From positions 1 to 43,162 of the IMG/VR virus record IMGVR_UViG_3300028925_008100: a stretch of 43,162 bases of DNA, one strand, 5' to 3'. The position numbers and the translations under genes were made by a program. Each line of letters opens with the position of its first letter. Within the stretch, counting starts at the first letter, position 1. Of the stretch, positions 6,715-40,046 are shown piece after piece. Origin of the DNA: a virus. The notes beneath the pieces were generated by a model, which ran no database searches, was not told where the DNA came from, and saw only the letters and a program-made list of their open reading frames with translations.

Positions 6715-8358
6715 TTATATGTTTTCACCCAGTTTAATTAGTTCTGCTATTATTCCCATTGAAGATAGTTTTTGGGCGTCTTGTTCTGTCTTTTTAGAAC
6801 TGATTAATAATTCTCTGACTTGTGGTGAACCACCAAAGTCAAGATATCTTTTTACATCTTCAGTATCAACACCCTTCGATGCAATCACATCTCTAATATC
6901 TGTTGTGTCTAATGGTGGATTATTTGGGTCTGCCTCATAAGCATCAAGTGCTTCTATTATTGATTGCGTTGAACCACCACCTTGTTGTATAGTATCAAAT
7001 GCTGCATTTAATGCCGCAACCGCTACAGCTGCTGCTGCTGCCTGTGCTTGTATGTTTGCTACTTTAGATTTTGCTTTATCAATATCGTCAAAAAATTCAT
7101 TCCACGCGAGTTTATTTTTAGCAGGAAGAGAATCTAACTCATTTAATCCGAGTGCTTCAGTTAGTTGATTCAACGATACGGTTTTCCATTCTTTTTTATC
7201 TACCCATTTAAAATCAAAAAAGTCTTTTACTTTTTTTAATTGGTCATTAAAAAACTGCAAATCAAGTAAATGGCCTGAAAGGTTTAGCGGGTTTATTACT
7301 CCCGGTGCTATTACGGGTGGTAATATTTTTGATGCTGCTGATATTACTCCATTGTTAATATTTGCTATATGTGGTTTCATAGATTCTGCCATTGGTAAAA
7401 TGTTTCGTGGTAATAACTTTGTATCACTATCTATATCATCTATCTTGTCACTTATATCTTTTTTTACTCCATTGGAATAATCCGTTACCATTTCGTTGGT
7501 TACAATACTTACCGCTTCACTATTTTCAATATTTACTTTATTACCTTTAATAAATATATCACGTTGTGCAAAAATACCAATATCATCTGACTTAGCATTT
7601 ATCATAATTCTATCGGAATCAAAAATAATTTGTGGTAAGTTATAATCTATATTTAATCCTCTACTATCTTCTCCACCCATTTCAGGCCCTTCTTTTAAAG
7701 TGGGTTCTGAATACACTATCTTTTCGTTAGTGGTCATTTGAATTGAAGAATCACTAGCTAGTAAATTTATGTTTGGTGAAATAGATTCACCTTCGATTTG
7801 ATTACTACCTAAAATAACTGAATTACCAAATCGTCCTTGTATGATTGTATCACCTTCGGAAAATGGCACTTTTGGCGGAGATGTATCTACAAAATATCTA
7901 CCTTGTCTATACTGTTCCAATTCACGATTACTATTTAGTAATGTACCTTCTTCATCATCATTTTTTGATTTATCTCCAACACTACTTTTATTAAAGTTTT
8001 GAAAATTTACTTTATTAGTATCAGTATTTAATCTACCAAAGTAATATCTTTGTTGAGTGGTTTTATCATTAAATCCAAGAACTATTTCGCCAACTATTGG
8101 TATCTGTAATATATTGGCATTTAATGGTAAAAATTCTTGTAATTCACTTGGACTATCTCCCTCCTCTGAAACAACATATCTACCGACTATTGTTCCTCTA
8201 TCATCAGAGATATCCATTACCTCTAATGCTTCTAATTCATAGAATAAGTGTTCTGCACCTAATTGCGCAAGTTTATTTCTTAATCCATCACTCGTAAGTA
8301 TATGGTTATCTAAAGGATTTGGTTCTCCACCAGAACCCCTTTTAATAATGTGAGCCAT
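6715..8358 (-). CDS. gp5-like baseplate hub/spike protein
   Basis: 547 aa. The N-terminal 130 residues look like the OB-fold of gp5/VgrG-type hub proteins: alternating strands such as RGTIVGRYVVSEE and LQIPIVGEIVLGF, with a 'PIVGE.V' turn typical of the phage spike OB domain. The middle has beta repeats expected for a needle (SVQ-type turns, INAKSDDIGIFAQRDIFIKG, with 'I..A..DI.I...' spacing near 255-275). No lysozyme catalytic motif is visible. The C-terminus is Ala-rich helical plus acidic loops. It probably forms the central spike or hub. Its stop lies 22 nt upstream of the next gene. Confidence 0.7.
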   Translation of the reverse strand: MAHIIKRGSGGEPNPLDNHILTSDGLRNKLAQLGAEHLFYELEALEVMDISDDRGTIVGRYVVSEEGDSPSELQEFLPLNANILQIPIVGEIVLGFNDKTTQQRYYFGRLNTDTNKVNFQNFNKSSVGDKSKNDDEEGTLLNSNRELEQYRQGRYFVDTSPPKVPFSEGDTIIQGRFGNSVILGSNQIEGESISPNINLLASDSSIQMTTNEKIVYSEPTLKEGPEMGGEDSRGLNIDYNLPQIIFDSDRIMINAKSDDIGIFAQRDIFIKGNKVNIENSEAVSIVTNEMVTDYSNGVKKDISDKIDDIDSDTKLLPRNILPMAESMKPHIANINNGVISAASKILPPVIAPGVINPLNLSGHLLDLQFFNDQLKKVKDFFDFKWVDKKEWKTVSLNQLTEALGLNELDSLPAKNKLAWNEFFDDIDKAKSKVANIQAQAAAAAVAVAALNAAFDTIQQGGGSTQSIIEALDAYEADPNNPPLDTTDIRDVIASKGVDTEDVKRYLDFGGSPQVRELLISSKKTEQDAQKLSSMGIIAELIKLGENI

Positions 8359-8747
8359 TAGTTTTCCTGTTTAATATCTTGAATAATTTCGTCTTGCTTG
8401 TTTTGTAACTCTTGAACATTTTCTTCTATTGCATCCATCAATTGTTCTTTTTCTGATTCGGATAGTCCGAACTCTTCTCCAGCATCTGATACTCTTTTTT
8501 CAGCTGCTGTAATTCTTTGAACGATTGTTGCTAATTTGACGAGTTGTTCATCGTTCTTTACATTAATTTCTAAGTATTCTTTTAACATAGGAATCATTTG
8601 CACGGCTGTATCGCCATCTTTAATAAATCCCACTACCTCTTTCATCAATACTTCTAATTGCTTCTTATTGGTATGGGAATTATCATAGATGTCTTTGAAC
8701 ACATCACCGAGTGTTTTTCCTTTGAATATTTCATAATCTGTTGACAT
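8358..8747 (-). CDS. Helical coiled-coil protein, first late gene
   Basis: 129 aa, almost entirely predicted helix with heptad-like Leu/Ile/Val spacing (for example SEKEQLMDAIEENVQELQN) and an acidic composition. The ATG is preceded not by a clear Shine-Dalgarno site but by a tandem AAAATTAAGCAAAATTA stretch. It is the first gene behind the late promoter word at 8816-8823, and its stop overlaps the spike gene start (TAATG). No family is recognised. A chaperone or baseplate assembly role is possible. Confidence 0.65.
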   Translation of the reverse strand: MSTDYEIFKGKTLGDVFKDIYDNSHTNKKQLEVLMKEVVGFIKDGDTAVQMIPMLKEYLEINVKNDEQLVKLATIVQRITAAEKRVSDAGEEFGLSESEKEQLMDAIEENVQELQNKQDEIIQDIKQEN

Positions 8748-8815
8748 AATTTTGCTTAATTTTGCTTGTTTTTAATCTAATAATAAATAGGTAAATATCA
8801 AAAAATAGGGATATA

Positions 8816-8823
8816 TATTTATA
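8816..8823 (-). promoter_or_regulatory. T4-type late promoter (TATAAATA)
   Basis: On the minus strand this reads exactly TATAAATA, the T4 late -10 consensus, with no sigma70 -35 needed. It lies about 70 nt upstream of the first baseplate gene, and this genome encodes a gp55-like sigma factor only 1 kb away. It sits in an almost symmetric AT block (about 8811-8828), so chance matches are a concern. The position at the head of the structural block is the main support. Confidence 0.7.
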
Positions 8824-8864
8824 TATCATTTGATTTTTGTTAGATTCGCTAATAGTTATTATAC

Positions 8865-8912: not shown

Positions 8913-9134
8913 ATGAAAAATACTATGGCAATGATAATGGATGTAGTTTCAGGCATAAAAGGCCTGTTATATCACGTTATTGGTCTTGGGGTACTTGTTC
9001 AACTAATATTTGTTGGCGGGTTCTTCGGTATGGACATTATTGGTAATCTTATCGGTTTAGTGAATTTGTTTGCAACAAGTGGATTCGCTGGATTTATAGC
9101 ACTATTAGTAGTGTTGGGATTACTTAATAAGTAA
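8913..9134 (+). CDS. Small membrane protein, the only plus-strand gene
   Basis: 73 aa with two hydrophobic segments: about residues 18-38 (LLYHVIGLGVLVQLIFVGGFF) and 55-71 (GFAGFIALLVVLGLL), separated by a MDIIGNLIGLVN stretch. It starts at an ATG behind AAAAGGGGAAACTAAA, an unusually strong ribosome site. It is closed by a bidirectional terminator 26 nt downstream. Similar small Gly-rich two-helix proteins occur beside tail genes in marine T4-like phages, as I recall. A holin-like or virion membrane function is possible but not shown. Confidence 0.8.
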   Translation: MKNTMAMIMDVVSGIKGLLYHVIGLGVLVQLIFVGGFFGMDIIGNLIGLVNLFATSGFAGFIALLVVLGLLNK

Positions 9135-9159
9135 AAAAGAATAAAGGTGGAATTAAAAA

Positions 9160-9184
9160 GGGGCGAGAATATCGCCCCTTTTTT
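9160..9184 (+). terminator. Bidirectional Rho-independent terminator
   Basis: GGGGCGA (9160-9166) pairs with TCGCCCC (9172-9178) around a five-base loop, followed by six T on the plus strand. On the minus strand the same stem is followed by TTTTTAATT. It therefore ends both the plus-strand gene at 8913 and the long minus-strand operon that finishes with the late sigma gene. Confidence 0.93.
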
Positions 9185-9187
9185 GTT

Positions 9188-9913
9188 TTATAGATTATCC
9201 CAACTACCTGTAAATTTGGTTTCTATTGAACCAGTAGTTAAGTAATTGTATTGTAGATTAACGTGATGTTTCTTCATCACATTGACAACACGAGTAATGT
9301 GTTGTGTATTTGAATTGGTCATTTCTCTAATCATAATGTATAGAGCTTTCTTATTGAAGTTATCAATGTTCTCTCTATGTTCCATAAGATACAAAACCGA
9401 ATTAGCAACATCCATATCTTGTTTTCTTTTGAAAACCGTAGTTAAGTTATTTGCCCAATACTCAATGAACAAATCAAGATATTCTTTCTTTGCTGTGATT
9501 AAGTCAGCTCGTGTTGCTTCTTTAACGGGGTCACGTTTGTAATCAGTAACTTCTTCTCCGTCAGTTTGTTTCATCTTCTTGTAATTATTATTGTTGTGTA
9601 GAATCAAATAGTTCTTAGCAACAATACTAAAGTATGAGAATGCTTTTCCTTTACCTTCGGTAAACTTATGCATATTCATATATAGAAAACTAACTACTTC
9701 GTGTTTCACATCATCTGATGGAACATCAAAGTAATAAAACTTAAATGTATGAATTATATTTTCTGCCAGCTTTTCAAAGGCATTTCTGATATGTTCATTA
9801 TAAATTCTCTCCCTCATATGAGGACGAGTTTCTTTATTGTGTCTTATGATAGCATTTTCTGTATCTTGTGTAAAGTAATATCTTGGTGATGTCTTTGCTG
9901 CTTTTCTTGGCAT
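9188..9913 (-). CDS. 55: Late-transcription sigma factor, gp55-like
   Basis: 241 aa. The region from about residue 25 to 117 matches the sigma region 2 style of T4 gp55 and relatives: helical IYNEHIRNAFEKLAENIIH, then HEVVSFLYMNMHKFTEGKGK, then AFSYFSIVAKNYLILHN, which resembles the DNA-melting/-10-reading helix ('AFSYF...AKN.L'). A C-terminal acidic/aromatic tail ends in TGSWDNL, as expected for a sliding-clamp-binding end. Gp55 recruits host RNA polymerase to TATAAATA late promoters. It is last in a six-gene operon and has a possible extra promoter inside the gene before it. Confidence 0.88.
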   Translation of the reverse strand: MPRKAAKTSPRYYFTQDTENAIIRHNKETRPHMRERIYNEHIRNAFEKLAENIIHTFKFYYFDVPSDDVKHEVVSFLYMNMHKFTEGKGKAFSYFSIVAKNYLILHNNNNYKKMKQTDGEEVTDYKRDPVKEATRADLITAKKEYLDLFIEYWANNLTTVFKRKQDMDVANSVLYLMEHRENIDNFNKKALYIMIREMTNSNTQHITRVVNVMKKHHVNLQYNYLTTGSIETKFTGSWDNL

Positions 9914-10168
9914 TTATACTTCCTTTTCTGTTATTTCGTTTAATTCATCTACGGTAGCTTTGATTGATTGGAATACAATTCCTACCTCATCGTCAGCTTC
10001 AAAGTTTCCTTTGTCGTCAATTTGTTTTAATGTTGCTTGTGTATCAATTACTCGTTGTGCGTAATCTTCTATCCAAGTTTCTAATCGTTCAGTTTTTCTC
10101 GTTAAGTTAAATATAACATAACTTTCAACCAAAGTCAAGAGAATTAATATTATTAAAAAATAAATCAC
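9914..10168 (-). CDS. Small single-pass membrane protein
   Basis: 84 aa with one N-terminal hydrophobic segment (MIYFLIILILLTLVESYVIF), then a charged coiled-coil-like cytoplasmic tail (LTRKTERLETWIEDYAQRVI). The start is GTG, overlapping the stop of the HD gene as GTGA. Its stop directly abuts the sigma gene ATG. Function unknown. Its first coding region also contains a sigma70-like promoter pointing at the sigma gene. Confidence 0.75.
   Translation of the reverse strand: MIYFLIILILLTLVESYVIFNLTRKTERLETWIEDYAQRVIDTQATLKQIDDKGNFEADDEVGIVFQSIKATVDELNEITEKEV
10110..10138 (-). promoter_or_regulatory. Possible internal promoter for late sigma gene
   Basis: TTGACT (10133-10138) and TATATT (10110-10115) on the minus strand are separated by exactly 17 bases, within the coding region of 9914-10168. 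A transcript would begin near 10103 and reach the gp55-like gene. It lacks the A-tract upstream box shared by the other promoters here, and a coding coincidence cannot be excluded. Confidence 0.4.
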
Positions 10169-10953
10169 TTTTTTGCCTCCCCAAATAGTTCGTTAAATAT
10201 ATCTTTAGCGTCTGTTGACTTGGTAAACTTTTCTTTTACTTGTGTATCAACTGCTGCTTTAATGTTTGTTACTGATTTCATAACCTTTTGTGATTCCTTT
10301 TTATCTTGACGATGCCATTCATCATATTCGGTATGAGTCGCCATCATATCTGCTTGGTGTAAAATGTAAGCGATATTACTTTTCAATCTCCAAGCTGGAT
10401 TATATCCTTTAAGATATTTTTCATTAGCGTCTTCGTAAAGTCCGTCCGTTAACATCAATCCAAGATATTCCCACTCCGTCATATCTATTCCATAATGTTG
10501 TAAAATAAATAATGACCTATCCGTAACATTCATATAAGAAGATAGATTATTATTGTGTGTATAAATCTCTCCCATATTTTTTACTCTCCAATCATTATCT
10601 TGAACGACATAATAATCATTACCTTGTAAATCCCCAACTTTACCTAAGTCGTGATGTAGAGCTGCAAATACTAATTCTTCATTAGTAAAGTTAATTGTTG
10701 CTCCATTGGATTCCCAAGTATCTCTAATCTGTTGTGACATATTGACTACGTGTAATATATGTTCTACATATCCACCCACCATAGCGTTGTGAAATGCTGC
10801 TTTACCACTTGCTGGCGCCACTACCATTCTGTCCTCAAAATCATCATACATTTTGTTGAGTTTTTCTAATCTATCTCCTGTAAATGTATTGTTGATAATT
10901 GTTCGTAAGTCCGTCCAATTGCTTTGTATTTTTTGTTCTGTTAATTGCTTCAT
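10165..10953 (-). CDS. HD-domain phosphohydrolase (YhaM-like)
   Basis: 262 aa. Metal ligands of the HD superfamily are visible: an upstream His in the segment AAFHNAMVGGYVEHILHV (about residues 54-71), then the HD pair in ALHHDLGKVGDL (about 98-109), and later His residues near TEYDEWH. Layout and length resemble HD nucleases/phosphohydrolases such as the YhaM 3'-5' exonuclease domain, without its OB domain. It could hydrolyse RNA, ssDNA ends or nucleotides. It overlaps the glycosyltransferase gene by 4 nt, so it shares its operon. If the operon modifies DNA, a nucleotide-pool role is possible. Confidence 0.75.
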   Translation of the reverse strand: MKQLTEQKIQSNWTDLRTIINNTFTGDRLEKLNKMYDDFEDRMVVAPASGKAAFHNAMVGGYVEHILHVVNMSQQIRDTWESNGATINFTNEELVFAALHHDLGKVGDLQGNDYYVVQDNDWRVKNMGEIYTHNNNLSSYMNVTDRSLFILQHYGIDMTEWEYLGLMLTDGLYEDANEKYLKGYNPAWRLKSNIAYILHQADMMATHTEYDEWHRQDKKESQKVMKSVTNIKAAVDTQVKEKFTKSTDAKDIFNELFGEAKK

Positions 10954-12284
10954 TTTTCTATAACCTCGTATCTATTTTTTGTAAATTTTATATCTGTTTC
11001 ATTTCTTAATCTATTTCTATATGAAGTAAACCCAATTCTTACTCCCCAACCCATATGTAATAATATCTCATTTTTGGTTACGGATTTTTTAGTTCTGATA
11101 AAGTCTACTATCTTATCATATGATTCAGTTCTTTTAATTGTATTTAAATTATCAATAGCGCCTTGAAACATATCATTAATTTTTAAAATTTGTTTTTCCC
11201 ATTTACTATCTTGAAATCTTTGTAATGATTTTTCTGAATACTCGTTTCTAAATTCTTTATCATCTAATACTTTATTCATTGAATCAAGAAAAGTATTTGA
11301 ATCATTATAATATATTCCAGCGTCATCTGCTAACTCGTGATAACTTCCGTCATCTGAAAACATATAAGGAACTCCGACACTCATTCCGTCAGTAGCAGAT
11401 ATTGCCCAACCCTCATACTTTTGTTTACAACAAACTCCAACTTTACAAGATGATAGTTTAGAAAAATACCCAAACCTATCATACTTATCAATTGTAATAT
11501 ATTCTCTTTCTTTTGATTCTGCTAATGGCACCCATACTTCAAAGTCTTGTCTTTGTTCCCAAAGTTTATCCATTTGCTCTAAAAACCAGGGATAATTTTT
11601 ATATGCGTGTGGTCGGTGATTATAAACAACTATATTTTTGTCTGTTGTTTGTTGTTCATAGTTTGGTGTTTCCCATCCGAGATATTGTGGTTTAAGAATA
11701 TCATCTAATTGTTTAACGACATTATCATTAAAATGTTCTTTAGCATTTTTCAATACAAGTTCTTTTTGTGCTTGTGTATTGATACCACACTTTTCCATTT
11801 GTAGTAAACCGATTATATTAAATGCTAAACCAACCTCATATTCATAGTTGGTTATCTCTTTAAATTCAGTCCAATGAGTATATCCAATAATTGTAGGACA
11901 TATATCGGTTGTGTTGAAAAGTAAATTTTTTAACTGACCAGTATGTTCTGGTAAATGTGAATATAAAATATCATAATCAGTATGTTTCCAATTGATTGCT
12001 TTGAACACTTCTTTAAATGGAAATGCCATTCTCATAGAATTTGGATAAGACATCTGTGGAACTATTAATTGGTCGGTATTGTCAAATTGTAAACTCGGTA
12101 TAAGTTCTGGTGACAATATTGTCCAATGTAAGTCAGTTCTTATCTTATTCATTTCTTTAATGATGTTTCCAAGCACGACAACATAACTATCCTTTTCTAA
12201 ATCCTTTTGGAAAGTAATGTTTGGATACACGAGTATCTTATACTTGCATTCTTTATCGTCTGATGTGAATCTATCGATAGACAT
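10950..12284 (-). CDS. GT-B glycosyltransferase with winged-helix tail
   Basis: 444 aa. The C-terminal Rossmann half shows a GT4-type donor site: NIVVYNHRPHAYKNYPWFLE (about 222-241), a KVGVCCKQKYEGWAISATD segment with the 'E.W....EA.A.G.P' style (about 281-300), and a 'GVPYMFSDD' step. The last 45 residues (SVTKNEILLHMGWG, then FTSYRNRLRNE, then IKFTKNRYEVIEK) read as a winged helix. A DNA-binding tail on a glycosyltransferase suggests a DNA base glucosyl-type enzyme rather than one acting on lipopolysaccharide. It overlaps its neighbours by 1 and 4 nt in the modification operon. Confidence 0.72.
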   Translation of the reverse strand: MSIDRFTSDDKECKYKILVYPNITFQKDLEKDSYVVVLGNIIKEMNKIRTDLHWTILSPELIPSLQFDNTDQLIVPQMSYPNSMRMAFPFKEVFKAINWKHTDYDILYSHLPEHTGQLKNLLFNTTDICPTIIGYTHWTEFKEITNYEYEVGLAFNIIGLLQMEKCGINTQAQKELVLKNAKEHFNDNVVKQLDDILKPQYLGWETPNYEQQTTDKNIVVYNHRPHAYKNYPWFLEQMDKLWEQRQDFEVWVPLAESKEREYITIDKYDRFGYFSKLSSCKVGVCCKQKYEGWAISATDGMSVGVPYMFSDDGSYHELADDAGIYYNDSNTFLDSMNKVLDDKEFRNEYSEKSLQRFQDSKWEKQILKINDMFQGAIDNLNTIKRTESYDKIVDFIRTKKSVTKNEILLHMGWGVRIGFTSYRNRLRNETDIKFTKNRYEVIEK

Positions 12285-13528
12285 TATGAATTATCTGACT
12301 CGTGTGTTGAAGCTTCTTCAAATTCAAAATCATATCCAGCTGGTTCAACGAACTTTTCCATCAAATCATAGTATTTCTTTTGATTTGTTTTTGCCCAAGC
12401 TGTCTTCCAATCTTTTGATGGGTGATGAACCACTACTACGACTTTATCGTAGTCTGAATATAACAACTTGTTCTGAATATTGTCCATACTCATCTTAGCT
12501 GATGTCATCATTATTACTAATGTTTTATCTGAAAGTCTGTATTCTGCCTTAAGGTCTTGGGCTTCAGCTGACATTACATTCCATTTTTTCCAAACCTTTC
12601 CAGTCATTTGTTCGTATTCGACATCTTCAACTTTCTTCTGAACTCTATTGGCTATTACACCACGAGTTCGTGAATTTAGTCCAAAACCAACGAGCATTTG
12701 AGAAGCTTCATATTCAAATGGTTTGATTCCATATTCTTCATATAACCCAAGTAATTGTTTCTCATAATCATCATTATCATTTTCTTTTCTTTTCTTTTCA
12801 TCTTCTGGATTAAGTAGTAATCCTAATTGACCAATTTCTACTTTACTCCAATCTGTCAGGTCTACATCTACATATTTATATTGAGTAGCTGACTTAGACT
12901 TTTGGATACCTTTCTGAGTATGTTTTCCACCGATACGAACTCGGTCAAAACCAAGAACATCTTCAGCTCCAATAGCCATTACCAATGGGTCTGTATATTC
13001 AATTGAACCACCATTCTCTTCAATCCTATCTGCTATATATTGGATTCTGTCTGGATACTCTTGGTATCTAACTTGGAATGTGTGCATATCTGTAAGTTCT
13101 TCTTTCTTACCGAACTTGACATCAAACTCTCCACACGAAGCATTATCGCCATCACCGAGAATTCTTTTAGCCATTATTTGGGCTTTGTGAACATCAAGTT
13201 TAGGTTTAGCACCTTCACTTATATTATAACTCATATCATTTGTCCTCACATTATTATTTCTTAGATATGAACCCTCATATCTTGTTGCTTCTTCTTTTGT
13301 TTCAAACCACTCAATTACTTCATACTTCCAATTAATATTTGAGTTTGAAAAATCTTCTCTAAGTTCAGGACTTGAACTTGTTTGCCAATATCCATCCCAA
13401 ACTTCTCCCTTATGATATCCAAAATACCATTTATCATTTGTAAGATTTGTCCACTTGTAGCAAAAGTATTTAAATCCAGAAGGATTATCTTTTATTTCTT
13501 TTTCTAATATTCTATCTGTCATTTTCAT
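12284..13528 (-). CDS. GIY-YIG + ParB-like fusion protein
   Basis: 414 aa in two parts. Residues about 17-90 look like a GIY-YIG nuclease module: YKWTNLTNDKWYFGYHKG holds the modified 'Y.Y..TN..n...Y.G.h.G' motif, then a Glu at the usual distance (YEGSYLRNN). Residues about 150-260 resemble a ParB-like nuclease/DNA-binding module: MAIGAEDVLGFDRVRIGGKH, then VDVDLTDWSKVEIGQLGLLLN, matching the ParB pattern 'dG.hR..a...v.v.v.d.sd.e...l...N'. The rest has no identified fold. It starts 1 nt after the DruA-like gene. Whether it cuts DNA or targets a modification enzyme is open. Confidence 0.6.
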   Translation of the reverse strand: MKMTDRILEKEIKDNPSGFKYFCYKWTNLTNDKWYFGYHKGEVWDGYWQTSSSPELREDFSNSNINWKYEVIEWFETKEEATRYEGSYLRNNNVRTNDMSYNISEGAKPKLDVHKAQIMAKRILGDGDNASCGEFDVKFGKKEELTDMHTFQVRYQEYPDRIQYIADRIEENGGSIEYTDPLVMAIGAEDVLGFDRVRIGGKHTQKGIQKSKSATQYKYVDVDLTDWSKVEIGQLGLLLNPEDEKKRKENDNDDYEKQLLGLYEEYGIKPFEYEASQMLVGFGLNSRTRGVIANRVQKKVEDVEYEQMTGKVWKKWNVMSAEAQDLKAEYRLSDKTLVIMMTSAKMSMDNIQNKLLYSDYDKVVVVVHHPSKDWKTAWAKTNQKKYYDLMEKFVEPAGYDFEFEEASTHESDNS

Positions 13529-14716
13529 TTATCTTCCAATATCCTTTAAGTATTTTTCTTTTGCTTGTTCCCAAGTGATGTTAATCATACCTGAATAAAA
13601 TAACATCTCTGGTTTAATTTTATTTTGTTCTAATAGTTTCTCATATCGTTTGATTGCTTTACGCTTCCACCAACTATCAATATACTCAATATCTCTATCG
13701 AACATATTTCTAATTTGTAATTCATCTTCTTTGATTTCACTTCTTAGAAATTCTTTTCCATTTTGATATATATTTGAAAAGTAACAACCTCGTTTGAATC
13801 CGTGTTCATACTTTGCTCTCTTAATATCTAATTCTTTATATATCAATTGAATAATCTTTTGTTTAATACCTGTTACGGGTTGGTTTGTTTTACCCGTTGT
13901 AACTCTTAGATAATCTTCTGTTCGGTGTTCTTTCAACCATTGGTGCCAAGAATCATAAAATGAATCATCTGGTTTTAAACTAATCTTACCTTTGGTTTCT
14001 CCGAGTGTTTTCCATTGTGGTATTCCATTATACATTGAGTGAATACCATACAACGCTGTTGTTGATATACCGACTAATGTTTGTCCATATAGTTTCTTCC
14101 AAGTATCACGAACAACTTTTGATGTAACCATTTGTGCTACTAACTTACCACCCAACATATTATAACCGAGTGGTTGCACACAACATATCGTAGTTCCGAT
14201 AGCTGTATGATTTAGTTTTCCGTCTTGAAATTTATTTTCTTTTGTCCAACCAATTAAACTATCTCTTACACCTAAAGCTGTAACATCACTACCTAAACAA
14301 ATTAATCCTAATACTTTACCTGTTGTTTCGTCTTTAACATAAAATTTTACATTACGACCTGGATTTGCTGTGAATTCCATTGAGTGAATAAGTCTTCTCG
14401 TGATAATCCAATCTTCATTTGCTTTTGCATTTCCGTGTTCTACTGGTTCTACAATTGGTTTGATTGAATTGATTTCTGAAATAGTTTGTTCTTTATTATA
14501 AATGTCTGTTGGTTGCCAGATAGTTCTTTCTAATCTATCAATAACATCTGCTCTATCCATAAAGAATTGTGGGTCTTTATTAAACTCTTCCCACTTCTTC
14601 CATAATGTATTTTCTTGAACTGACATTTCTTTTAGAAAGTCCATATTATCTATGAACGATTTCTTTTCTGCTTCGTAATTAAACTCTGCTTCCCCAAAGA
14701 AGTTTTCAAAACTCAT
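13529..14716 (-). CDS. DruA/Mom-like protein (DUF4338-type), 395 aa
   Basis: First gene behind the promoter at 14755-14783. Residues about 131-245 carry the DUF4338 layout: TTGKVLGLICLGSDVTALGV, then SLIGWTKENKFQD, then HTAIGTTICCVQPLGYNMLG, then LYGQTLVGISTTALYG, then QWKTLGETKGKI. In DruA-family proteins this reads 'iGw....r...l..i..n.rFL..p...v.nLas', then 'dw...yg..p.l.et', then 'nW..lG.T.G'. Mom-type DNA acyl-modification enzymes share a similar GNAT-like core. Function is uncertain: DNA modification or anti-host defence. The match is by eye and partial. The co-operonic glycosyltransferase favours DNA modification. Confidence 0.55.
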   Translation of the reverse strand: MSFENFFGEAEFNYEAEKKSFIDNMDFLKEMSVQENTLWKKWEEFNKDPQFFMDRADVIDRLERTIWQPTDIYNKEQTISEINSIKPIVEPVEHGNAKANEDWIITRRLIHSMEFTANPGRNVKFYVKDETTGKVLGLICLGSDVTALGVRDSLIGWTKENKFQDGKLNHTAIGTTICCVQPLGYNMLGGKLVAQMVTSKVVRDTWKKLYGQTLVGISTTALYGIHSMYNGIPQWKTLGETKGKISLKPDDSFYDSWHQWLKEHRTEDYLRVTTGKTNQPVTGIKQKIIQLIYKELDIKRAKYEHGFKRGCYFSNIYQNGKEFLRSEIKEDELQIRNMFDRDIEYIDSWWKRKAIKRYEKLLEQNKIKPEMLFYSGMINITWEQAKEKYLKDIGR

Positions 14717-14788: not shown

Positions 14789-15316
14789 TTATTTTTTATC
14801 CGTAACATATGTAAAATCTGCTTCCATACTTGTTTTTAATATTTTAGCATTCTCAAATTTATATGGTTTAGTTCCTGGTGATTCCAAGATATCAATACGA
14901 TTTACAAATCGTTTATTCATTGTATCTTTAACTTGATATACCCCATCTTTTCCGTCTGTTCCTGTTAGAACAATAAAATCTCCATAGTCTAACCAACCAC
15001 CCCATCTTTTTAAAAGATTTCTACTAACTGCTACAAATTTATATTCTGATGCTTGGTGTATTTTTATTCGTGTTCCATCGGCTAAAATATCTGGTGTTGA
15101 ATCTGTTTGGCCTCGTGTCGGGTGATACATAGTTACCGTAACATCTAAACCTGATAACTTTATCTCCGTGTACTTATCTTTTAATAACTTGTTTTCATCT
15201 TGCAATTCTTGTATCGTGTCTGTGTAGATATCTTTGTATTTCTCAAATTGACAAACCCAAATGTATCCATTAAACATTGTAAAAAATGTTAAGAATATAA
15301 TAAAATATTTTTTCAT
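14789..15316 (-). CDS. Membrane-anchored 3D-domain protein
   Basis: Start chosen at the ATG at 15316 (MKKYFIIFL), behind AAAGGAGTGGAAACT, rather than at an upstream in-frame start. 175 aa with an N-terminal hydrophobic signal anchor (residues about 1-22) and a short coiled coil. A C-terminal double-psi barrel of the 3D family follows, with VTMYHPTRGQTDSTPD, then GDFIVLTGTDGKDGVYQVKD, then TMNKRFVNRIDIL. The spaced Asp residues match the three Asp that name the domain. 3D/MltA-related proteins bind or cleave peptidoglycan. It may act in lysis or cell-wall remodelling. Confidence 0.75.
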   Translation of the reverse strand: MKKYFIIFLTFFTMFNGYIWVCQFEKYKDIYTDTIQELQDENKLLKDKYTEIKLSGLDVTVTMYHPTRGQTDSTPDILADGTRIKIHQASEYKFVAVSRNLLKRWGGWLDYGDFIVLTGTDGKDGVYQVKDTMNKRFVNRIDILESPGTKPYKFENAKILKTSMEADFTYVTDKK

Positions 15317-15342
15317 AGTTTCCACTCCTTTTATAGTAATAA

Positions 15343-16236
15343 CTATTTAGTTCCTACTTTTTTCTGTACGAAATCTACCATCTGTTCTGCAACATTTATC
15401 TTGGTATACTTTTCCATACCTTTAAATCCTGGTGCTGAATTAACTTCACAAATTACATAACTTCCATTATTAAATAACAAGTCAACACCTGCTATATCTA
15501 AATTTAGTAATCTTGCACACTCACCACCAATCCATTCAATATCATCATCTATCTGATAAGGTATTGCTTCTCCACCTCTTGTGATGTTCGCTCTAAAATC
15601 TCCGTCAATAGATTGTCGCATCATACAACCGACAACTTTACCATTGACAACAAGCACTCTCAAATCTTTACCAAAAGAGTCTTGTATAAATTCTTGTAAT
15701 ATAATATTATAACTTGGTTTTGTTATCTCTGCCATCTTCATCAATTGTCTGAATTGTTTTCTATCCTCAACTAAGAATACCCCCGCTCCATATGAACCAC
15801 TTAATGTTTTTACTACCATAGGATAACTTAAATTCTTTTCTACCAAAGTAATATCAATTGGATGCTTTACCAACATAGTCTTTGGAACTGGTAGATTTGA
15901 TTCTCCTAATATCTGTTGTGAATACAATTTGTCTTTAACTGCGTCAATAGCTTCACTTCCATTAATCATCACTACACCTAATCGTTCCATATGTCTGATA
16001 ATAGCTTTAATAAAGTATGTCGTTCCACTACCTGTTCTCGGTAATACGAAATCAGGTAATTTTCTTGGCTCACCACTAACGATAATAGATTTTCTATCAT
16101 CTCTATCAACGAATATATCCACATCTTGTGGATTAACTACACGAATCGTGATTCCTTGTTTCTCAAATTCCTCTACGAGTCTTTTGACTTCGTGGTTCTC
16201 ACCTGATAACGTCTTCTGGATTATCCAGCCGTTCAA
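15343..16236 (-). CDS. RimK-like ATP-grasp ligase
   Basis: 297 aa, close to E. coli RimK. It begins with TTG overlapping the stop of the gene before it (TTGA), behind GAGGAAATGGA. The ATP-grasp core is clear: DKLYSQQILGESNLPVPKTM (about 104-123), PMVVKTLSGSYGAGVFLVED (about 138-157) with lysine and glycine-rich loop, LRVLVVNGKVVGCMMRQS (about 193-210), and the C-terminal metal site LLFNNGSYVICEVNSAPGFK (about 254-273). RimK-type ligases add Glu to ribosomal protein S6 or make peptide-like amide bonds. In a phage it may modify the host translation machinery, or amidate a modified base or small metabolite. Confidence 0.85.
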   Translation of the reverse strand: MNGWIIQKTLSGENHEVKRLVEEFEKQGITIRVVNPQDVDIFVDRDDRKSIIVSGEPRKLPDFVLPRTGSGTTYFIKAIIRHMERLGVVMINGSEAIDAVKDKLYSQQILGESNLPVPKTMLVKHPIDITLVEKNLSYPMVVKTLSGSYGAGVFLVEDRKQFRQLMKMAEITKPSYNIILQEFIQDSFGKDLRVLVVNGKVVGCMMRQSIDGDFRANITRGGEAIPYQIDDDIEWIGGECARLLNLDIAGVDLLFNNGSYVICEVNSAPGFKGMEKYTKINVAEQMVDFVQKKVGTK

Positions 16237-16388
16237 TCCATTTCCTCTTCGTGATATTGGTCAAATGGATTTTCATATTCTAATTCCATTTCAATAGTGT
16301 TTAATAATTCTTGAACTATATTCCAATCTTCTGCTTCTATCGCTTCTTCTAATTTCTCTAATACATCTTTTAATGTTATTCCACTCAT
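16233..16388 (-). CDS. Small acidic protein, 51 aa
   Basis: I prefer the ATG at 16388 (MSGITLKDVLEKLEEAIEAE), which follows AAAGGAGAGAG at the correct distance, over a longer TTG start at 16430. The product is acidic and helical and ends in HEEEMD. No family is recognised. The stop overlaps the start of the RimK-like gene by 4 nt, so the two are likely translationally coupled, and it could be a small regulator or partner of the ligase. Confidence 0.6.
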   Translation of the reverse strand: MSGITLKDVLEKLEEAIEAEDWNIVQELLNTIEMELEYENPFDQYHEEEMD

Positions 16389-16481
16389 AAATATACTCTC
16401 TCCTTTGTTGCTACTTGTTGTTGATACCAATCTAAATTCTCATCTCTCCATACATATGGATTTTCTGAATTTTCAGACCAT

Positions 16482-17411
16482 TTATTTCATAAATCCTTGT
16501 ATTGCTAATTCTTTGTGTTTTGCCTCTACCATAATATCTACATTGTTACCATATGTATCTGGCAATTGATTAATTAAATCTGAATGTGCTTGTGGTCTAA
16601 TTGACTCATCTAACTGATGTTCTGCTTTTGATTCTGAATAATGAACCACCGGAACAATGCCATCAGGCCAAGTAGACATAGCTAATTCTAATGCTTGTTG
16701 TTCTGTTTGTCCACCTGTATTGAACTTGTAATGATGATAATCAAATGTAATTGGGATACCTATTCTTTTATGTATGCCCTCATATAAATCTTTTACTGAA
16801 TACATAGATGCTTTGTCGTCATTTTCCACTACGAGTCTTGACTTGACTGAATCGGGTAGTCGTTCAAAGTTTTTACAAAACCTATCCATAGCAGATTGTT
16901 TATCTCCGTAAACACCATTACAATGTATATTGATTTTGTTGTAGTGTGTTCTACTCAAACCCATAAAGTCAAATATATCTCCGTGCATAATTAAATCTTT
17001 AAATGTATTCGCAACTACATTTTCATTTGGTGAAACCAAAACATTGAATGGTCCTGGATGAGATGTAACACGAACTCCGTGTGTATTAGCCATTGTTCCT
17101 GCTGAATGTAACCATTGTTTAATCTCTTTAATATCCTTTAAGTCATCCCACTCATACTCAGTTTTCCAAGGTGCTAACCCACTTGTCATACGATAAAAGT
17201 TATGTCCGTTCAGAACATTCCAAGTCATAATGTTATGTAAGTCTTTTGCGTTCGCAAGTGCAATCTCAGATGCGTAGTCCACACCCTTAGATTGAAACGT
17301 ACGTTTAATCATACCACGACCTGTCGTGATTGGTTTAGTTCCTTTTGGTTTATCACCATACTTAGTTGGATAACTAAGTTGCATATTTATACAAGCATAA
17401 CCTAATTTCAT
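16482..17411 (-). CDS. uvsE: UV damage endonuclease UvdE/UvsE-like
   Basis: 309 aa, the length of bacterial UvsE. TIM-barrel signature pieces are in order: KLGYACINMQL at the N-terminus, THGVRVTSHPGPFNVLVSPN (about 135-154), KINIHCNGVYGDKQSAMDRF (about 183-202) with a metal-binding His, RLVVENDDKASMY (about 219-231), GIPITFDYHHYKFN (about 242-255) with the paired His, and VVHYSESKAEH (about 281-291). UvsE nicks 5' of cyclobutane dimers and 6-4 photoproducts. It protects the phage genome from light, fitting a sunlit aquatic habitat. The ribosome site is AGAGG. Confidence 0.92.
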   Translation of the reverse strand: MKLGYACINMQLSYPTKYGDKPKGTKPITTGRGMIKRTFQSKGVDYASEIALANAKDLHNIMTWNVLNGHNFYRMTSGLAPWKTEYEWDDLKDIKEIKQWLHSAGTMANTHGVRVTSHPGPFNVLVSPNENVVANTFKDLIMHGDIFDFMGLSRTHYNKINIHCNGVYGDKQSAMDRFCKNFERLPDSVKSRLVVENDDKASMYSVKDLYEGIHKRIGIPITFDYHHYKFNTGGQTEQQALELAMSTWPDGIVPVVHYSESKAEHQLDESIRPQAHSDLINQLPDTYGNNVDIMVEAKHKELAIQGFMK

Positions 17412-28608: not shown

Positions 28609-28747
28609 TTTCAATCCAATTTATAAATTTGTCTATAATCATTTCCAATATATAATATACTGATAAGAACAATACGACTACACCCATAGTAGCTATTGCT
28701 AAGACTATCAAACATAGTGCTATGAAATTATCAAGGTATTTAATCAT
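28601..28747 (-). CDS. Small membrane protein, 48 aa
   Basis: An ATG inside the end of the HAD gene (8-nt overlap) opens 48 codons: MIKYLDNFIALCLIVLAIAT, then hydrophobic VVVLFLSVYYILEMI, then a charged tail. One or two membrane segments. Unknown function. The stop overlaps the PC4-like start region. Confidence 0.65.
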   Translation of the reverse strand: MIKYLDNFIALCLIVLAIATMGVVVLFLSVYYILEMIIDKFINWIENE

Positions 28748-29486
28748 TTAGTATATTCTGTAATATTTTTTCTGTATGTCTATAACCAAACTTATCTGAA
28801 GGTTTTCCTGCTTGAAAAACATAACAATTATCTCTATCATTCATTATTTTCGCTAATGGATAATCATTACCACCCTCCATTGTTCTATCACCAATAAAGA
28901 AATACTTTTGGTCAGGGTGTTCCGTTATAATATGATATAATATTTGTGATTTGTTATTACCCTTTGGTGCGATATCAATACTAATCTGTCCACCGATAAC
29001 TGCTTCTATATCTACCCAATCTCTATTAATCAATCCTGATATAATCTCTCGTTCTTGACATTCTAAATCATACTGAAAATAATCTTCTCGTTCATCATTA
29101 GAACAATCTCTACCAACAACACTAAAATTTAACATCGAACCTCTGTCCTCAATGTGATTACCTGCTCGTGTTTCATACTGAGAATTTAATAATGTTTCTT
29201 CTAAGAACTGAATTAAGTTTTCCGGTGGTAGAAAGTTATTATAATAAACTTGTTTTCCCATCCACTCTGTATAATACTCATTACCACCACAAGTGAATAA
29301 TCCCTCTGCTCTTTCTAATATATGTAGTGGAACTTGTTCTTTCATCTTTTCTAAATCACTACCACTAACTAAATAGAATGTATTTTCCTTAGACCAGGTA
29401 TCAAAGAACTCTAAAAATTCTTTTGTCATCTTTTTTCTTGATGGTGTAAGTGTTCCGTCAACATCAAATATATAAATATTAGACAT
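28740..29486 (-). CDS. HAD enzyme, phosphomannomutase-like
   Basis: 248 aa. HAD motif I FDVDGTLTPS gives D8 and D10, and motif II 'YLVSGSDLE' follows at about 38-46. A cap region has the PMM2-like order NGGNEYY/GSMLNFSVVGRDC. Motif IV is FFIGDRTMEGGNDYP. The length and the order Ser-Gly-Ser, then Asn-rich cap, resemble eukaryotic-type phosphomannomutase (HAD-IIB). It likely converts mannose-6-P/mannose-1-P, feeding GDP-sugar synthesis. The start follows TAGGAGATATATT. Confidence 0.78.
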   Translation of the reverse strand: MSNIYIFDVDGTLTPSRKKMTKEFLEFFDTWSKENTFYLVSGSDLEKMKEQVPLHILERAEGLFTCGGNEYYTEWMGKQVYYNNFLPPENLIQFLEETLLNSQYETRAGNHIEDRGSMLNFSVVGRDCSNDEREDYFQYDLECQEREIISGLINRDWVDIEAVIGGQISIDIAPKGNNKSQILYHIITEHPDQKYFFIGDRTMEGGNDYPLAKIMNDRDNCYVFQAGKPSDKFGYRHTEKILQNILND

Positions 29487-36003: not shown

Positions 36004-36095
36004 TATTGTCTCCCTATTTTATCTATGGAATCTAAACCTCGTTTTCCATATAAAACTATTAATACTATTAGAACTACTAAAACTATGTAATCCAT
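36003..36095 (-). CDS. Tiny membrane protein, 30 aa
   Basis: ATG overlaps the carbamoyltransferase stop (TAATG) and the TAA overlaps the next gene ATG. The product MDYIVLVVLIVLIVLYGKRG is one hydrophobic helix with a short charged tail. Double overlap makes it a likely real, coupled gene. Confidence 0.65.
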   Translation of the reverse strand: MDYIVLVVLIVLIVLYGKRGLDSIDKIGRQ

Positions 36096-37615
36096 TATTT
36101 CTGTCCTGTAAAGACTTTAACACCATACTTATCAGTAAAGTCTTTTGCGTCTTTTTCGTCATTAACAATTGGTTGTCCTTTAATGTTAAGACTTGTGTTC
36201 AATACCATTGGACAACCTGTCTTCTTGTAGAACTCTTTAATCAATTTATAATAACCTGGATTATCTTCTTTACTGACGGTCTGAACTCGTGAAGTATTAT
36301 CCACGTGACATATCGCTGGATACTTATCAGGAAATTTACAAGGTGCAGTATATTGCATAAATTGAGATTTCCGTGTAGGCATATCGAATATCTCGTGTGC
36401 GTGTTCTTCCAATACTGATGGAGCGAATGGTCTGAACTCTTGTCTATTCTTAATTGTATTCATTTGTGCTTTAATGTCTTTACCTCGTGGGTCTGCAAGT
36501 AATGAACGATTACCTAATGCTCTCGGGCCATACTCTGCTCTTCCATTAGCAACACCAACTAAATTACCTTTAAGTAATTCTTTTACTACTTGTTTGACTG
36601 GATACTTTCCTTTAATGTTATATCCTAAGAAAGCTCCGTTCTCCATAAAGTCTAAGTGTTTACCATTGACATATGCCGCACAACCTAATGATGAACCTGC
36701 GTCACCTGGATTCGGAAGTATCCACATATTAGGATACTGATTCTTAACGACTAAACTATTGGCTACACAATTCAATGCAACTCCACCACTATAACACATA
36801 TTAGCAGTTTCTGGAACTACTTCTTTTGCTTTTTTAAATACCTTCTGTATTTGCCATTCACATATAGTCTGAACATTAGCTGCTATATCAAACTTCCATT
36901 GTTCTGAACCATCATCTGGATAGATACTTGGATTATAATCCATACAACCTTTGTGTAGATTTCTTCTCAATGATACATCATCGTGATAAGTAAAGAAGTC
37001 ATTGTATAATATTGATTGTAAGTCTTTATTTTGTTTACCCCAAGCTGCCATACCCATTAAAATGAATTCATCTTCTTGTGGTTTCAATCCTAATCGTTGA
37101 GTCATAGCACTATACCATAATCCTAAACTATGTGGATATGTTTGACTCCATCTCTTTTCTAATTTATTTCCATTGGCATACCATATAGTAATTGTATCAA
37201 ATTCTCCAATAGCATCAATACATACAATTGCACTTTCTCTATATGGTGATGTGAAGTAAGTAGAACTTGCGTGAGATATATGGTGGTCAACATATTCGTC
37301 AATCTTCATATTCATATTCTCAATAGGTTTCAATACTTCATTCAGATGTTGTTGTGGTAGATTCTTTCTCGTGAATACTTCTGAATATTGTCCAGCTTTT
37401 AATTGTCTGAGTTTCTTAACATATGGTCTTTCAAAGTAAACCACTTTCTTTGGTATACCATAATCAAACATATCCAAGAACATTTCTATATTTAAATTAC
37501 TATCATTTTTTATACCACTATATCTTTCTGCGTGTGCAGCAAAGAGAATTTTATCATCCTCAATTAATGTTATTGCTGCGTCGTGGTTTAACGCATTTAT
37601 TCCTAAGATTTTCAT
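36095..37615 (-). CDS. NodU/TobZ-type carbamoyltransferase
   Basis: 506 aa. An N-terminal actin-like domain starts with MKILGINALNHDAAITLIED (H11). VDHHISHASSTYFTSP has H111, H112 and H115 (YrdC-like/Kae1-type metal region). The C-terminal half holds SGGVALNCVANS, NPGDAGSSLGCAA, YGPRALGNRSLLADPR and PFAPSVLEE, typical of carbamoyltransferases that transfer carbamoyl from carbamoyl-AMP to a hydroxyl. Target may be a hydroxymethyl base or a small metabolite; phages of this type often carry it. Start behind AAGGAGTAGAA. Confidence 0.93.
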   Translation of the reverse strand: MKILGINALNHDAAITLIEDDKILFAAHAERYSGIKNDSNLNIEMFLDMFDYGIPKKVVYFERPYVKKLRQLKAGQYSEVFTRKNLPQQHLNEVLKPIENMNMKIDEYVDHHISHASSTYFTSPYRESAIVCIDAIGEFDTITIWYANGNKLEKRWSQTYPHSLGLWYSAMTQRLGLKPQEDEFILMGMAAWGKQNKDLQSILYNDFFTYHDDVSLRRNLHKGCMDYNPSIYPDDGSEQWKFDIAANVQTICEWQIQKVFKKAKEVVPETANMCYSGGVALNCVANSLVVKNQYPNMWILPNPGDAGSSLGCAAYVNGKHLDFMENGAFLGYNIKGKYPVKQVVKELLKGNLVGVANGRAEYGPRALGNRSLLADPRGKDIKAQMNTIKNRQEFRPFAPSVLEEHAHEIFDMPTRKSQFMQYTAPCKFPDKYPAICHVDNTSRVQTVSKEDNPGYYKLIKEFYKKTGCPMVLNTSLNIKGQPIVNDEKDAKDFTDKYGVKVFTGQK

Positions 37616-37617
37616 TT

Positions 37618-38517
37618 CTACTCCTTAATGATTAATATCTCGTGTGACTCTTTCGGGTCATTGTTATCTTTATTCTTTCCTATTCGGGTTTCCCCTTGTC
37701 CAAATGAATATTGCCATTTGGGAAAAACTTGTTTATATCCTTTATACATTTCTCTAATTTCTGCGCAATCATTATACGATAAGATAAACTTACCTTTATG
37801 ATTATCCAATAACTCTCTCAACTTATTATGGTCGAAGTGTGTATGATGAACTGGAAAGTTACTATTGGGATATATTGCTTTAAACATCTTGTTATCATCA
37901 TCACCCTCTTTCTTTTCCATATAGTATGGTGGGTCACAATATATCAGTTCGTTCTCGTGTCCTGGTATCACTTCTTCAAATGATTTACATTCAACACTCA
38001 TATTCGGAACATTAAAATTCTTTACTCGTTGTATAGCATTTTCATACAATGATTCTTTCTTTAAAAAAATAGAAGAAAACCAACCTAAAAACATTGGCCC
38101 ATATGATAGATTATGGTTGTACCAATAATATGCAGCTCCTAAGTCGTCTGCTAACTCAATAGACTTTCTATCATAATGGCTGGTTTTCCAATTTTTAAAT
38201 AACTCTTGAACCTTATCCCAATGCAGTAGTGTATCTTTAATCTCATCATACTGCTCTTTCGTTGGTTCTAATTCTTGTAGTATCCCATATAATCTTTTTG
38301 GATTGGATAACTGATGTTGCCAGTAATTAACCAAGATATTAAATATATCATATCCTTTAATCCGAATACCTAATTCGTGTGCCCATCTAACTTCTAATGA
38401 ACCACCGCCCACGAATGGACTAATGATTTCTTTTGGTCTGGGCCAGAACGGAATGTGATATGAAATGGTTTCATATGCTTTTGATTTACCACCTGCATAT
38501 CTAATTGGTGTTCTCAT
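37618..38517 (-). CDS. dam: Dam-type adenine methyltransferase (D12 class)
   Basis: 299 aa. Motif X/I IRYAGGKSKA and FVGGGSLEV (about 35-43) bind SAM, and the catalytic DPPY is at 195-198 (LIYCDPPYYM). These are typical D12/MT-A70-independent Dam features. It could methylate GATC-like sites to evade restriction. The start lies 16 nt inside the previous small gene, and its stop is followed by the carbamoyltransferase start. Confidence 0.92.
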   Translation of the reverse strand: MRTPIRYAGGKSKAYETISYHIPFWPRPKEIISPFVGGGSLEVRWAHELGIRIKGYDIFNILVNYWQHQLSNPKRLYGILQELEPTKEQYDEIKDTLLHWDKVQELFKNWKTSHYDRKSIELADDLGAAYYWYNHNLSYGPMFLGWFSSIFLKKESLYENAIQRVKNFNVPNMSVECKSFEEVIPGHENELIYCDPPYYMEKKEGDDDNKMFKAIYPNSNFPVHHTHFDHNKLRELLDNHKGKFILSYNDCAEIREMYKGYKQVFPKWQYSFGQGETRIGKNKDNNDPKESHEILIIKE

Positions 38518-39177: not shown

Positions 39178-39282
39178 TTATTCTTTAATCATTGTATACA
39201 TTAACCACACACCAAATACTAATCCAAGGGCTTCGCCCATTAAAGGATAAGTTTGAAATAGTGGTAGTGGTTCTGGTATCAT
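39178..39282 (-). CDS. Small membrane protein, 34 aa
   Basis: ATG overlaps the S1/P1 stop (ATGA). MIPEPLPLFQTYPLMGEALG, then LVFGVWLMYTMI: one hydrophobic segment. Likely real by overlap. Unknown. Confidence 0.55.
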   Translation of the reverse strand: MIPEPLPLFQTYPLMGEALGLVFGVWLMYTMIKE

Positions 39283-40046
39283 TCGTATATCTTGTTTAAT
39301 ACGCCTGCTAATCTGATACCACTTTGGTATAATCTTTTCTTTACTAATGGAAAATTATCATACATATATAATTCTGCTTTATCGTATGTGTTTAAAAATG
39401 GGTCATTGAAGTCTTCGTAGATATCTCTAACATAGTTATGTGATTCCATTACCCAATCTTCTACATTACCTTGAAAAACTTTTGTATTGGTATGTTCCCT
39501 TATAACGAAGTCTGATAATTCGGTATAGCTTAAATTGTAATGTTCAATCATATCGGTATCCCAAATCAAATGTAGATTAGTTGGTGAATGCCCATACCAT
39601 TGTGCTTCAATCTTATTACCACCCCAATCTTCATATTGTCCCGTGTGCATTGGTTGATGAACATCTCCAATTAAATGAACTAAATACTTTAAATAAAATG
39701 CTTTAGTTTCTTTATCGGATACCTTATCTTTCAATACTTCAATACACTTGTCAATTGCCATCATAATATCTCCACCTTGAAGTCGTTCTATTTCAAACCA
39801 CTCTTTATCTAATGGGATATTAATATAATGCCATTGTCCGTATTGTTTATATAGTGGATTAGATTTCATCTCATCAGGCCAAGTAGATACTCGGGCTAAT
39901 GATTCTCCATCTAACAAATATACTATTTGATTATAGGCATCGGGAGATAAGTGTTGTTCGGCAATATAACCAACTGAACGATGTCCAGTATCTCCCCAAC
40001 TCAATATTTGGGATAAAAATAATACTATAATTAATACATACTTCAT
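39279..40046 (-). CDS. Secreted S1/P1-type nuclease
   Basis: 255 aa. A signal peptide (MKYVLIIVLFLSQILS) is followed directly by W17, which after cleavage becomes the N-terminal zinc-ligand Trp of this family. Then H22 (GDTGHRSVGYIAE), DEMK region, HLIGDVHQPMHTG (about 117-129) and DWGGNKIE, plus a late NLHLIWDTDMIE. These are the trinuclear zinc ligands. The enzyme digests single-stranded DNA/RNA in periplasm or outside. It is unusual on a phage; it may recycle host or competitor DNA for nucleotides or phosphate. Start behind AAGGAGTTATA. Confidence 0.93.
   Translation of the reverse strand: MKYVLIIVLFLSQILSWGDTGHRSVGYIAEQHLSPDAYNQIVYLLDGESLARVSTWPDEMKSNPLYKQYGQWHYINIPLDKEWFEIERLQGGDIMMAIDKCIEVLKDKVSDKETKAFYLKYLVHLIGDVHQPMHTGQYEDWGGNKIEAQWYGHSPTNLHLIWDTDMIEHYNLSYTELSDFVIREHTNTKVFQGNVEDWVMESHNYVRDIYEDFNDPFLNTYDKAELYMYDNFPLVKKRLYQSGIRLAGVLNKIYE

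Follow-up and report, generated by a model that had tools for sequence, protein, structure and literature searches.

A candidate DNA-hypermodification cassette with exchangeable nuclease partners lies ahead of the late sigma gene of an uncultured marine T4-like virus

Introduction

Do six tightly joined genes ending in a phage late sigma factor constitute a single pathway, or can parts of such a run come and go independently? The question is posed by IMG/VR record IMGVR_UViG_3300028925_008100, a 43-kb uncultured marine T4-like virus, all 43,162 nucleotides (nt) of which were analyzed and are called the window here. Between positions 9188 and 14716, six open reading frames (ORFs), all on the minus strand and contiguous or overlapping, encode in order a protein of the DruA family, a GIY-YIG/ParB-like protein, a glycosyltransferase (GT), an HD-domain phosphohydrolase, a small membrane protein, and a gp55-like sigma factor. 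The initial annotation treated all six as one module for base hypermodification or nucleotide processing, driven by one promoter and wired to late transcription, and raised the possibility that late transcription itself requires the modification. Our analysis instead divides the operon. With slightly better than even confidence, we favor the reading that the first three genes form a DNA-hypermodification cassette that resembles a restriction-modification system and takes plug-in nucleases, and we find that the last three belong to a block that persists where DruA and the GT are absent.

Results

The operon combines a replaceable slot with a constant sigma block

The tight joins described in the initial annotation were borne out, with junctions of 0 nt between the genes for DruA (395 amino acids [aa]; 13529-14716) and the GIY-YIG/ParB-like protein (12284-13528), -1 nt between the latter and the GT gene (10950-12284), -4 nt on either side of the HD gene (10165-10953), and 0 nt between the genes for the membrane protein (9914-10168) and the 241-aa sigma factor (9188-9913). 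A sigma70-like promoter, TTGACT-17-TATATT, precedes the DruA gene on the same strand (14783-14755), as the proposal of a single promoter had implied. Sigma70-like sites are not in excess in the window (59 versus 63 in shuffles), and TTGAC-17-TATATT is kept ahead of DruA in relatives that have the same left neighbor, a 178-aa gene (14789-15325, minus strand). The best reading is that the operon is expressed from a host-type sigma70 promoter and would thus precede late transcription. Downstream of the sigma gene lies a T4-type late promoter box, TATAAATA (8816-8823, minus strand), 76 nt before a 129-aa gene (8358-8747, minus strand) that is the conserved right neighbor of the block. With a sigma70 promoter at DruA and a late box after sigma, the operon would end, and a late unit begin, at the sigma gene.

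We compared this arrangement with other loci, identified by L numbers, that were collected through DruA, sigma, HD, and GT queries, so that the counts below are not a random census; most of the contigs are fragments, and absences from the slot speak for the locus and not for the whole genome. Across relatives, the HD gene, the small membrane protein gene, the sigma gene, and the following gene are constant, and what varies is the interval bounded by HD on one side and the 178-aa gene (or DruA) on the other. Flavobacterium phage immuto has the HD-membrane protein-sigma set but neither DruA nor GT (annotated gene order and hidden Markov model [HMM] matches), and HD and sigma were detected by HMM in distant contigs lacking DruA (L242-L257). 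We had entertained all six genes as one pathway and dropped that idea once the synteny table separated the slot from the HD-membrane protein-sigma block; a role for HD in the modification pathway was rejected because HD accompanies sigma even in loci that lack DruA. The reading as a base-hypermodification module is thus supported for DruA and the GT and not supported for the HD protein, the membrane protein, and the sigma factor.

The slot contents were resolved at 57 distinct HD loci. DruA, a partner gene, and GT were found together in 27 of them (a few with an extra gene), DruA and GT in 2, DruA without GT in 22 (two with two DruA copies), and no DruA in 6. Not one of the 51 distinct DruA-containing slots had a partner gene without a GT, a linkage for which the Fisher p of ~2e-12 ignores the shared ancestry of related loci and so overstates significance.

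The partners belong to diverse families, the HNH and PD-(D/E)XK labels being in part read from motifs. The window's GIY-YIG/ParB-like type recurs in L018, L034, L136, L140, L145, and L228. Elsewhere the partner is a ParB protein with an invariant D..ExK motif (ParB_N, 0.009; L009, L024, L056, L171, and L263, with the more distant L041 and L236), a GmrSD_N-HNH protein (6e-6; L031, L095, L176, and L221), a GHKL ATPase with or without a PD-(D/E)XK-like tail (HATPase_c_3, 4e-11 and 7e-14; L005, L006, and L170), an HNH-like protein (L174 and L227), a protein of no assigned family (L008, L023, and L185), or a bona fide Mom (PF25680, 1e-40; L178, L179, L181, and L183). A profile of the ParB-PD-(D/E)XK partners matched Spo0J/ParB weakly in the Protein Data Bank (PDB) (0.11). 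GTs 66 to 86% identical to that of the window sit beside many of these nonhomologous partners, so it is the partner that is exchanged. The predicted nuclease is, then, exchangeable and travels with the GT, a feature beyond the view of the initial annotation.

The same association recurs outside this locus and, within it, DruA can be replaced

In three loci without DruA, the slot held other candidate modification genes: an N6_N4_Mtase, a thymidylate-synthase homologue (Thymidylat_synt), an AsnB-like protein (Asn_synthase), and a pyridoxal phosphate (PLP) enzyme (PALP) in L153 (4269-8905); an N6_N4_Mtase with a dioxygenase-type hydroxylase (Asp_Arg_Hydrox) in L148; and a PLP enzyme (PALP) with an SPPY-motif methyltransferase-like protein in L150. 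The L153 cassette looks like another base-hypermodification pathway. Because these slots appear to carry base-hypermodification genes, DruA and the GT would take an equivalent functional place.

A second T4-like lineage (L018 and L021-L024) has the order partner, GT, DNA polymerase (T4-type, 1.4e-84), 231-aa gene, DruA, and there three different partners adjoin polymerases that are 89 to 100% identical. The 231-aa gene is at the place expected for the sliding clamp, and a PDB search gave no confirmation that it encodes one. In bacterial contigs, which are metagenome or single-cell assemblies and of which L283 may be viral, a GT lay beside DruA in five of six matches. Three bacterial sequences carry ParB_N-DruA fusions, in which ParB_N is clear only in L285 (3e-11) and L287 (1.6e-9) and weaker in L284 (0.011). 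The fusion gene is convergent with a GT homologue and, in L285 and L287, lies near recombinases; ParB_N-DruA and GT possibly make up a mobile two-gene system of their own.

Properties of the three cassette proteins

The initial annotation had called the first protein DruA/Mom-like. The DUF4338 search that it proposed gave a clear answer, with a match to PF14236 at E = 1.4e-22 (80.6 bits versus a curated cut-off of 27), and the PADLOC DruA model (PDLC00002) matched at 4e-24; the Mom profile PF25680 did not match the window protein. Structure prediction of 13529-14716 yielded an AlphaFold2 model with a predicted local distance difference test score (pLDDT) of 86.8, for which Foldseek returned from the PDB mainly acetyl- and other acyltransferases with GNAT-type folds (best probability, 0.98). 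A profile search of DruA against the PDB gave nothing useful. In the literature on DUF4338, we found the domain termed a GNAT domain (PMC10853773) and found no biochemistry. The predicted DruA structure is GNAT-like, as is Mom, and DruA is probably an acyltransferase acting on DNA bases, with a fold akin to that of Mom. PADLOC, run on three window proteins, recognized DruA as the sole Druantia component, the other operon proteins matching unrelated families.

The window also encodes a short second DruA/Mom-like protein (40046-40636; PF14236, 1.1e-7; PHROG Mom-like, 2e-6), whose gene overlaps one for an S1/P1 nuclease (39279-40046; PF02265, 1.5e-59). The homologue of this short protein in L288, a near relative, follows a true Mom gene (6.4e-49); the S1/P1 nuclease gene was not found beside such homologues in the relatives examined.

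The second protein matched homing endonucleases in PHROG (1.5e-12) and PADLOC (HEase, 1e-3), and the predicted GIY-YIG residues Y24, Y35, and G37 and predicted catalytic residues E85 and N102, within a domain spanning about residues 17 to 110, were invariant among eight aligned homologues, so that the GIY-YIG half of its earlier description stands. Of the proposed ParB half, a G201xH203 motif was invariant across the same homologues, and hhalign against the ParB-PD-(D/E)XK family gave a weak match (probability, 7%; E = 0.0047). A fold search with the model was uninformative (one sulfiredoxin match at E = 0.39), and a profile of the GIY-YIG/ParB-like proteins found nothing useful in the PDB.

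The search of GT families proposed in the initial annotation identified the third protein as a GT-B/GT4-like enzyme (PF00534, 2.8e-8; 34 bits versus a cut-off of 26.4), and a profile search of the PDB gave a weak match to WlaC (0.021). Its helix-turn-helix-like C-terminal tail is kept in 14 of 16 aligned homologues, being absent in L018 and L024; the description of this tail as a winged helix comes from reading the sequence. The GT gene adjoins a nuclease, Mom, or DruA gene in almost every resolved locus, and tblastn found no relatives in 50,697 records of cultured phages. Far from the operon, 28740-29486 encodes a phosphomannomutase-like/HAD protein (PF03332, 1.6e-27), which might possibly supply a sugar nucleotide for the GT.

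The sigma block and its late box

The HD protein was correctly described as a phosphohydrolase: PHROG phosphohydrolases matched at 2e-12 and PF01966 at 0.0023, below the curated cut-off, and residues H65, H101, D102, H199, and D202 are invariant; a profile search of the PDB gave nothing useful. The next protein has one predicted N-terminal membrane segment, in agreement with its earlier label, and its position in the HD-sigma interval is conserved in relatives. Single-sequence Pfam and PHROG searches of the 241-aa protein found no direct family match. Since a search of its alignment profile against the PDB gave no gp55 match, we tested its identity by hhalign against an alignment of gp55 proteins from T4, cyanophages, and other phages, which matched over the N-terminal 100 residues (P = 91; E = 9.5e-7), and 5 of 13 family members matched PHROG late sigma (best E, 0.0019). 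These comparisons support homology to gp55, as first proposed, and a putative role as late sigma factor. Read with the standard code, the sigma homologue of an uncultured 484-kb phage (L082, 12001-12696) contains one in-frame stop, which may reflect either stop codon reassignment or a match running across a frame end.

Nearly all close relatives have the box TATAAATA at -56, -65, -66, or -76 relative to the next gene (-57 in one), and 94 of 103 loci overall have it within 150 nt. Its total count in the window shows no enrichment (15 versus 10 expected), so only the conserved position carries weight. Among relatives, the box shifts in steps of ~10 nt (-56, -66, and -76; window positions 8748-8830), and the few sequences inspected suggest that differing numbers of copies of a 10-nt repeat, AAGCAAAATT, in the leader ahead of the start codon account for these steps. 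Between sigma and the box, 8913-9183 holds, on the plus strand and so opposing the operon, a 73-aa hydrophobic ORF followed by a strong 12-pair terminator.

Discussion

What might the cassette do? We propose that it occupies an exchangeable site in a T4-like phage, just before the invariant HD-membrane protein-sigma block, and that DruA would most likely link an acyl-type moiety to a base in DNA and the GT, guided by its DNA-binding-like tail, would most likely add a sugar to the DruA-modified base or to another phage base. The ParB-like nuclease would be the restriction half, attacking the DNA of the host or of a competing phage, which would lack the modification or bear a foreign one, and the phage's own DNA would be shielded by its modification. 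The cassette thus suggests that the viral DNA may carry a sugar or acyl modification. That DNA is the substrate, the order of the reactions, and the discrimination of self from nonself are what we infer; the direct basis is gene content, the GNAT-like DruA model, partner exchange, the linkage of DruA, ParB-type proteins, and GT, and promoter placement. We assign DruA and the GT to DNA modification because of that model, their exchange with Mom and base-hypermodification genes, and the restriction-type partners, and also because bacterial ParB-DruA fusions adjoin a GT and another lineage has the polymerase-linked order. More tentatively, and as a version we would not yet expect to hold in full, DruA and the helix-turn-helix-tailed GT may make an acylated and/or glycosylated base new to cultured phages, with the nuclease swapped among at least five unrelated families, the GT kept, and phage competition driving the exchange.

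Several points weigh against a cassette of this kind. The best Foldseek E value for DruA against the PDB was ~0.01, none falling below 1e-3; the GIY-YIG/ParB-like model is mediocre (pLDDT, 68.7), and its ParB-like part has motif-level support, from the GxH motif and analogy with relatives; and family labels for the L008, L174, and L185 partners rest on motif reading without profile matches. In addition, 22 of the 51 DruA slots carry neither GT nor partner, so DruA must be able to work alone. GIY-YIG and HNH domains are also characteristic of homing endonucleases, and the GT belongs to a family that includes makers of cell-surface glycans, the usual products of GT4-like enzymes.

The last two points lead to different explanations. 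If the partners are homing or selfish endonucleases invading a tolerated slot, then GT and DruA are independent and the pairing is hitchhiking, an idea that fits the PHROG and PADLOC labels and the fact that the window's GIY-YIG version was found in IMG/VR only in this same virus. We think it unlikely, given that several partners (GmrSD_N proteins, GHKL ATPases, PD-(D/E)XK proteins, and Mom) are not of homing type, that none of the 51 DruA slots has a partner without GT, that a second lineage shows the pairing too, and that ParB is fused to DruA beside GT in bacteria. DruA and the GT might otherwise act on a surface glycan, tRNA, or protein in what is a general host-interaction locus. The WlaC match points that way, as do cyanophage glycosyltransferase clusters interpreted as surface-glycan related (PMC7824862), but a non-DNA target seems improbable beside Mom, DNA amino-methyltransferase-like proteins, a thymidylate-synthase homologue, restriction-type proteins, and DNA polymerase, and with a helix-turn-helix-like GT tail and a ParB_N-DruA fusion.

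The membership of DruA in Druantia, the restriction of modified phage DNA by GmrSD-family proteins, and the recombinases beside bacterial copies would suit an anticompetitor defense unit that makes no self-protective mark. We give this little credence: no DruB-E homologue was recognized in the neighborhoods examined, the GT has no defined Druantia role, and the 22 slots without a partner lack an effector. Least credible, to the point of being very improbable, is a modification on which late transcription via the gp55-like sigma depends. In T4, modified DNA is linked with late transcription, and the cassette does adjoin a sigma gene. However, the TATAAATA box is identical and identically spaced whether the slot holds DruA only, DruA-nuclease-GT, or an unrelated cassette, which argues against a modification-specific late promoter and against the initial suggestion; the sigma block also occurs without DruA, and elsewhere the set sits at DNA polymerase.

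The restriction-modification-like reading has partial precedents. In jumbo phages, Mom (GNAT) domains are fused to endonucleases, and these fusions have been interpreted as a modification that protects phage DNA and a nuclease that attacks other DNA (PMC7824862). Those fusions and Mom of phage Mu share with our cassette a predicted GNAT-type base modifier coupled to a nuclease, but here the GNAT-like protein is of the DruA family and is accompanied by a GT, and a gene of its own, swapped among unrelated families, encodes the nuclease. Glucosylation of hydroxymethylcytosine by the T4 alpha- and beta-GTs, with its RB69-type variants, likewise joins a T4-like phage, a glycosyltransferase, host- or competitor-directed nucleases, and self-protection (here proposed), whereas our enzyme is GT4-like with a helix-turn-helix-like tail, and no hydroxymethylase or alpha-/beta-GT was identified in the window. 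GmrSD/BrxU type IV restriction shares GmrSD_N (ParB/Srx-like) and HNH with the partners in L031, L095, and L176, which are phage encoded beside their own GT; the window has GIY-YIG plus ParB-like domains instead. The DruA family (PF14236; PDLC00002) is shared with Druantia, no other component of which was seen in the neighborhood, where DruA is linked to GT and ParB-type proteins. A ParB-like protein in a DNA-modification operon is also known from Dpd and other systems with ParB-like NTPases (DpdB and DndB; PMC12839542), but no tRNA-guanine transglycosylase (TGT) or phosphorothioation genes were found here.

This reading predicts a new DNA hypermodification, involving a GT family that tblastn did not detect in cultured phages, and gives DruA, a defense protein for which we found no settled biochemistry, a testable role as a DNA-base acyltransferase. 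If it is true, marine T4-like phages may wage interphage warfare with exchangeable nucleases shielded by a common modification, and the slot beside the late sigma gene is a place to look for more hypermodification pathways.

Two other regions of the window deserve mention. Upstream of the slot, 15343-17411 encodes a RimK-like ATP-grasp ligase (7.9e-51) and a UvdE-type UV endonuclease (9.2e-53). At 36095-38517, 2 nt separate a carbamoyltransferase gene (PF16861, 1.7e-56; PF02543, 1.3e-41) from the gene for a D12-class DNA adenine methyltransferase (PF02086, 6.9e-24). Since 5-carbamoyloxymethylcytosine is the product of a carbamoyltransferase that has these same domains (PMC8670742), this virus may modify its DNA in a second way.

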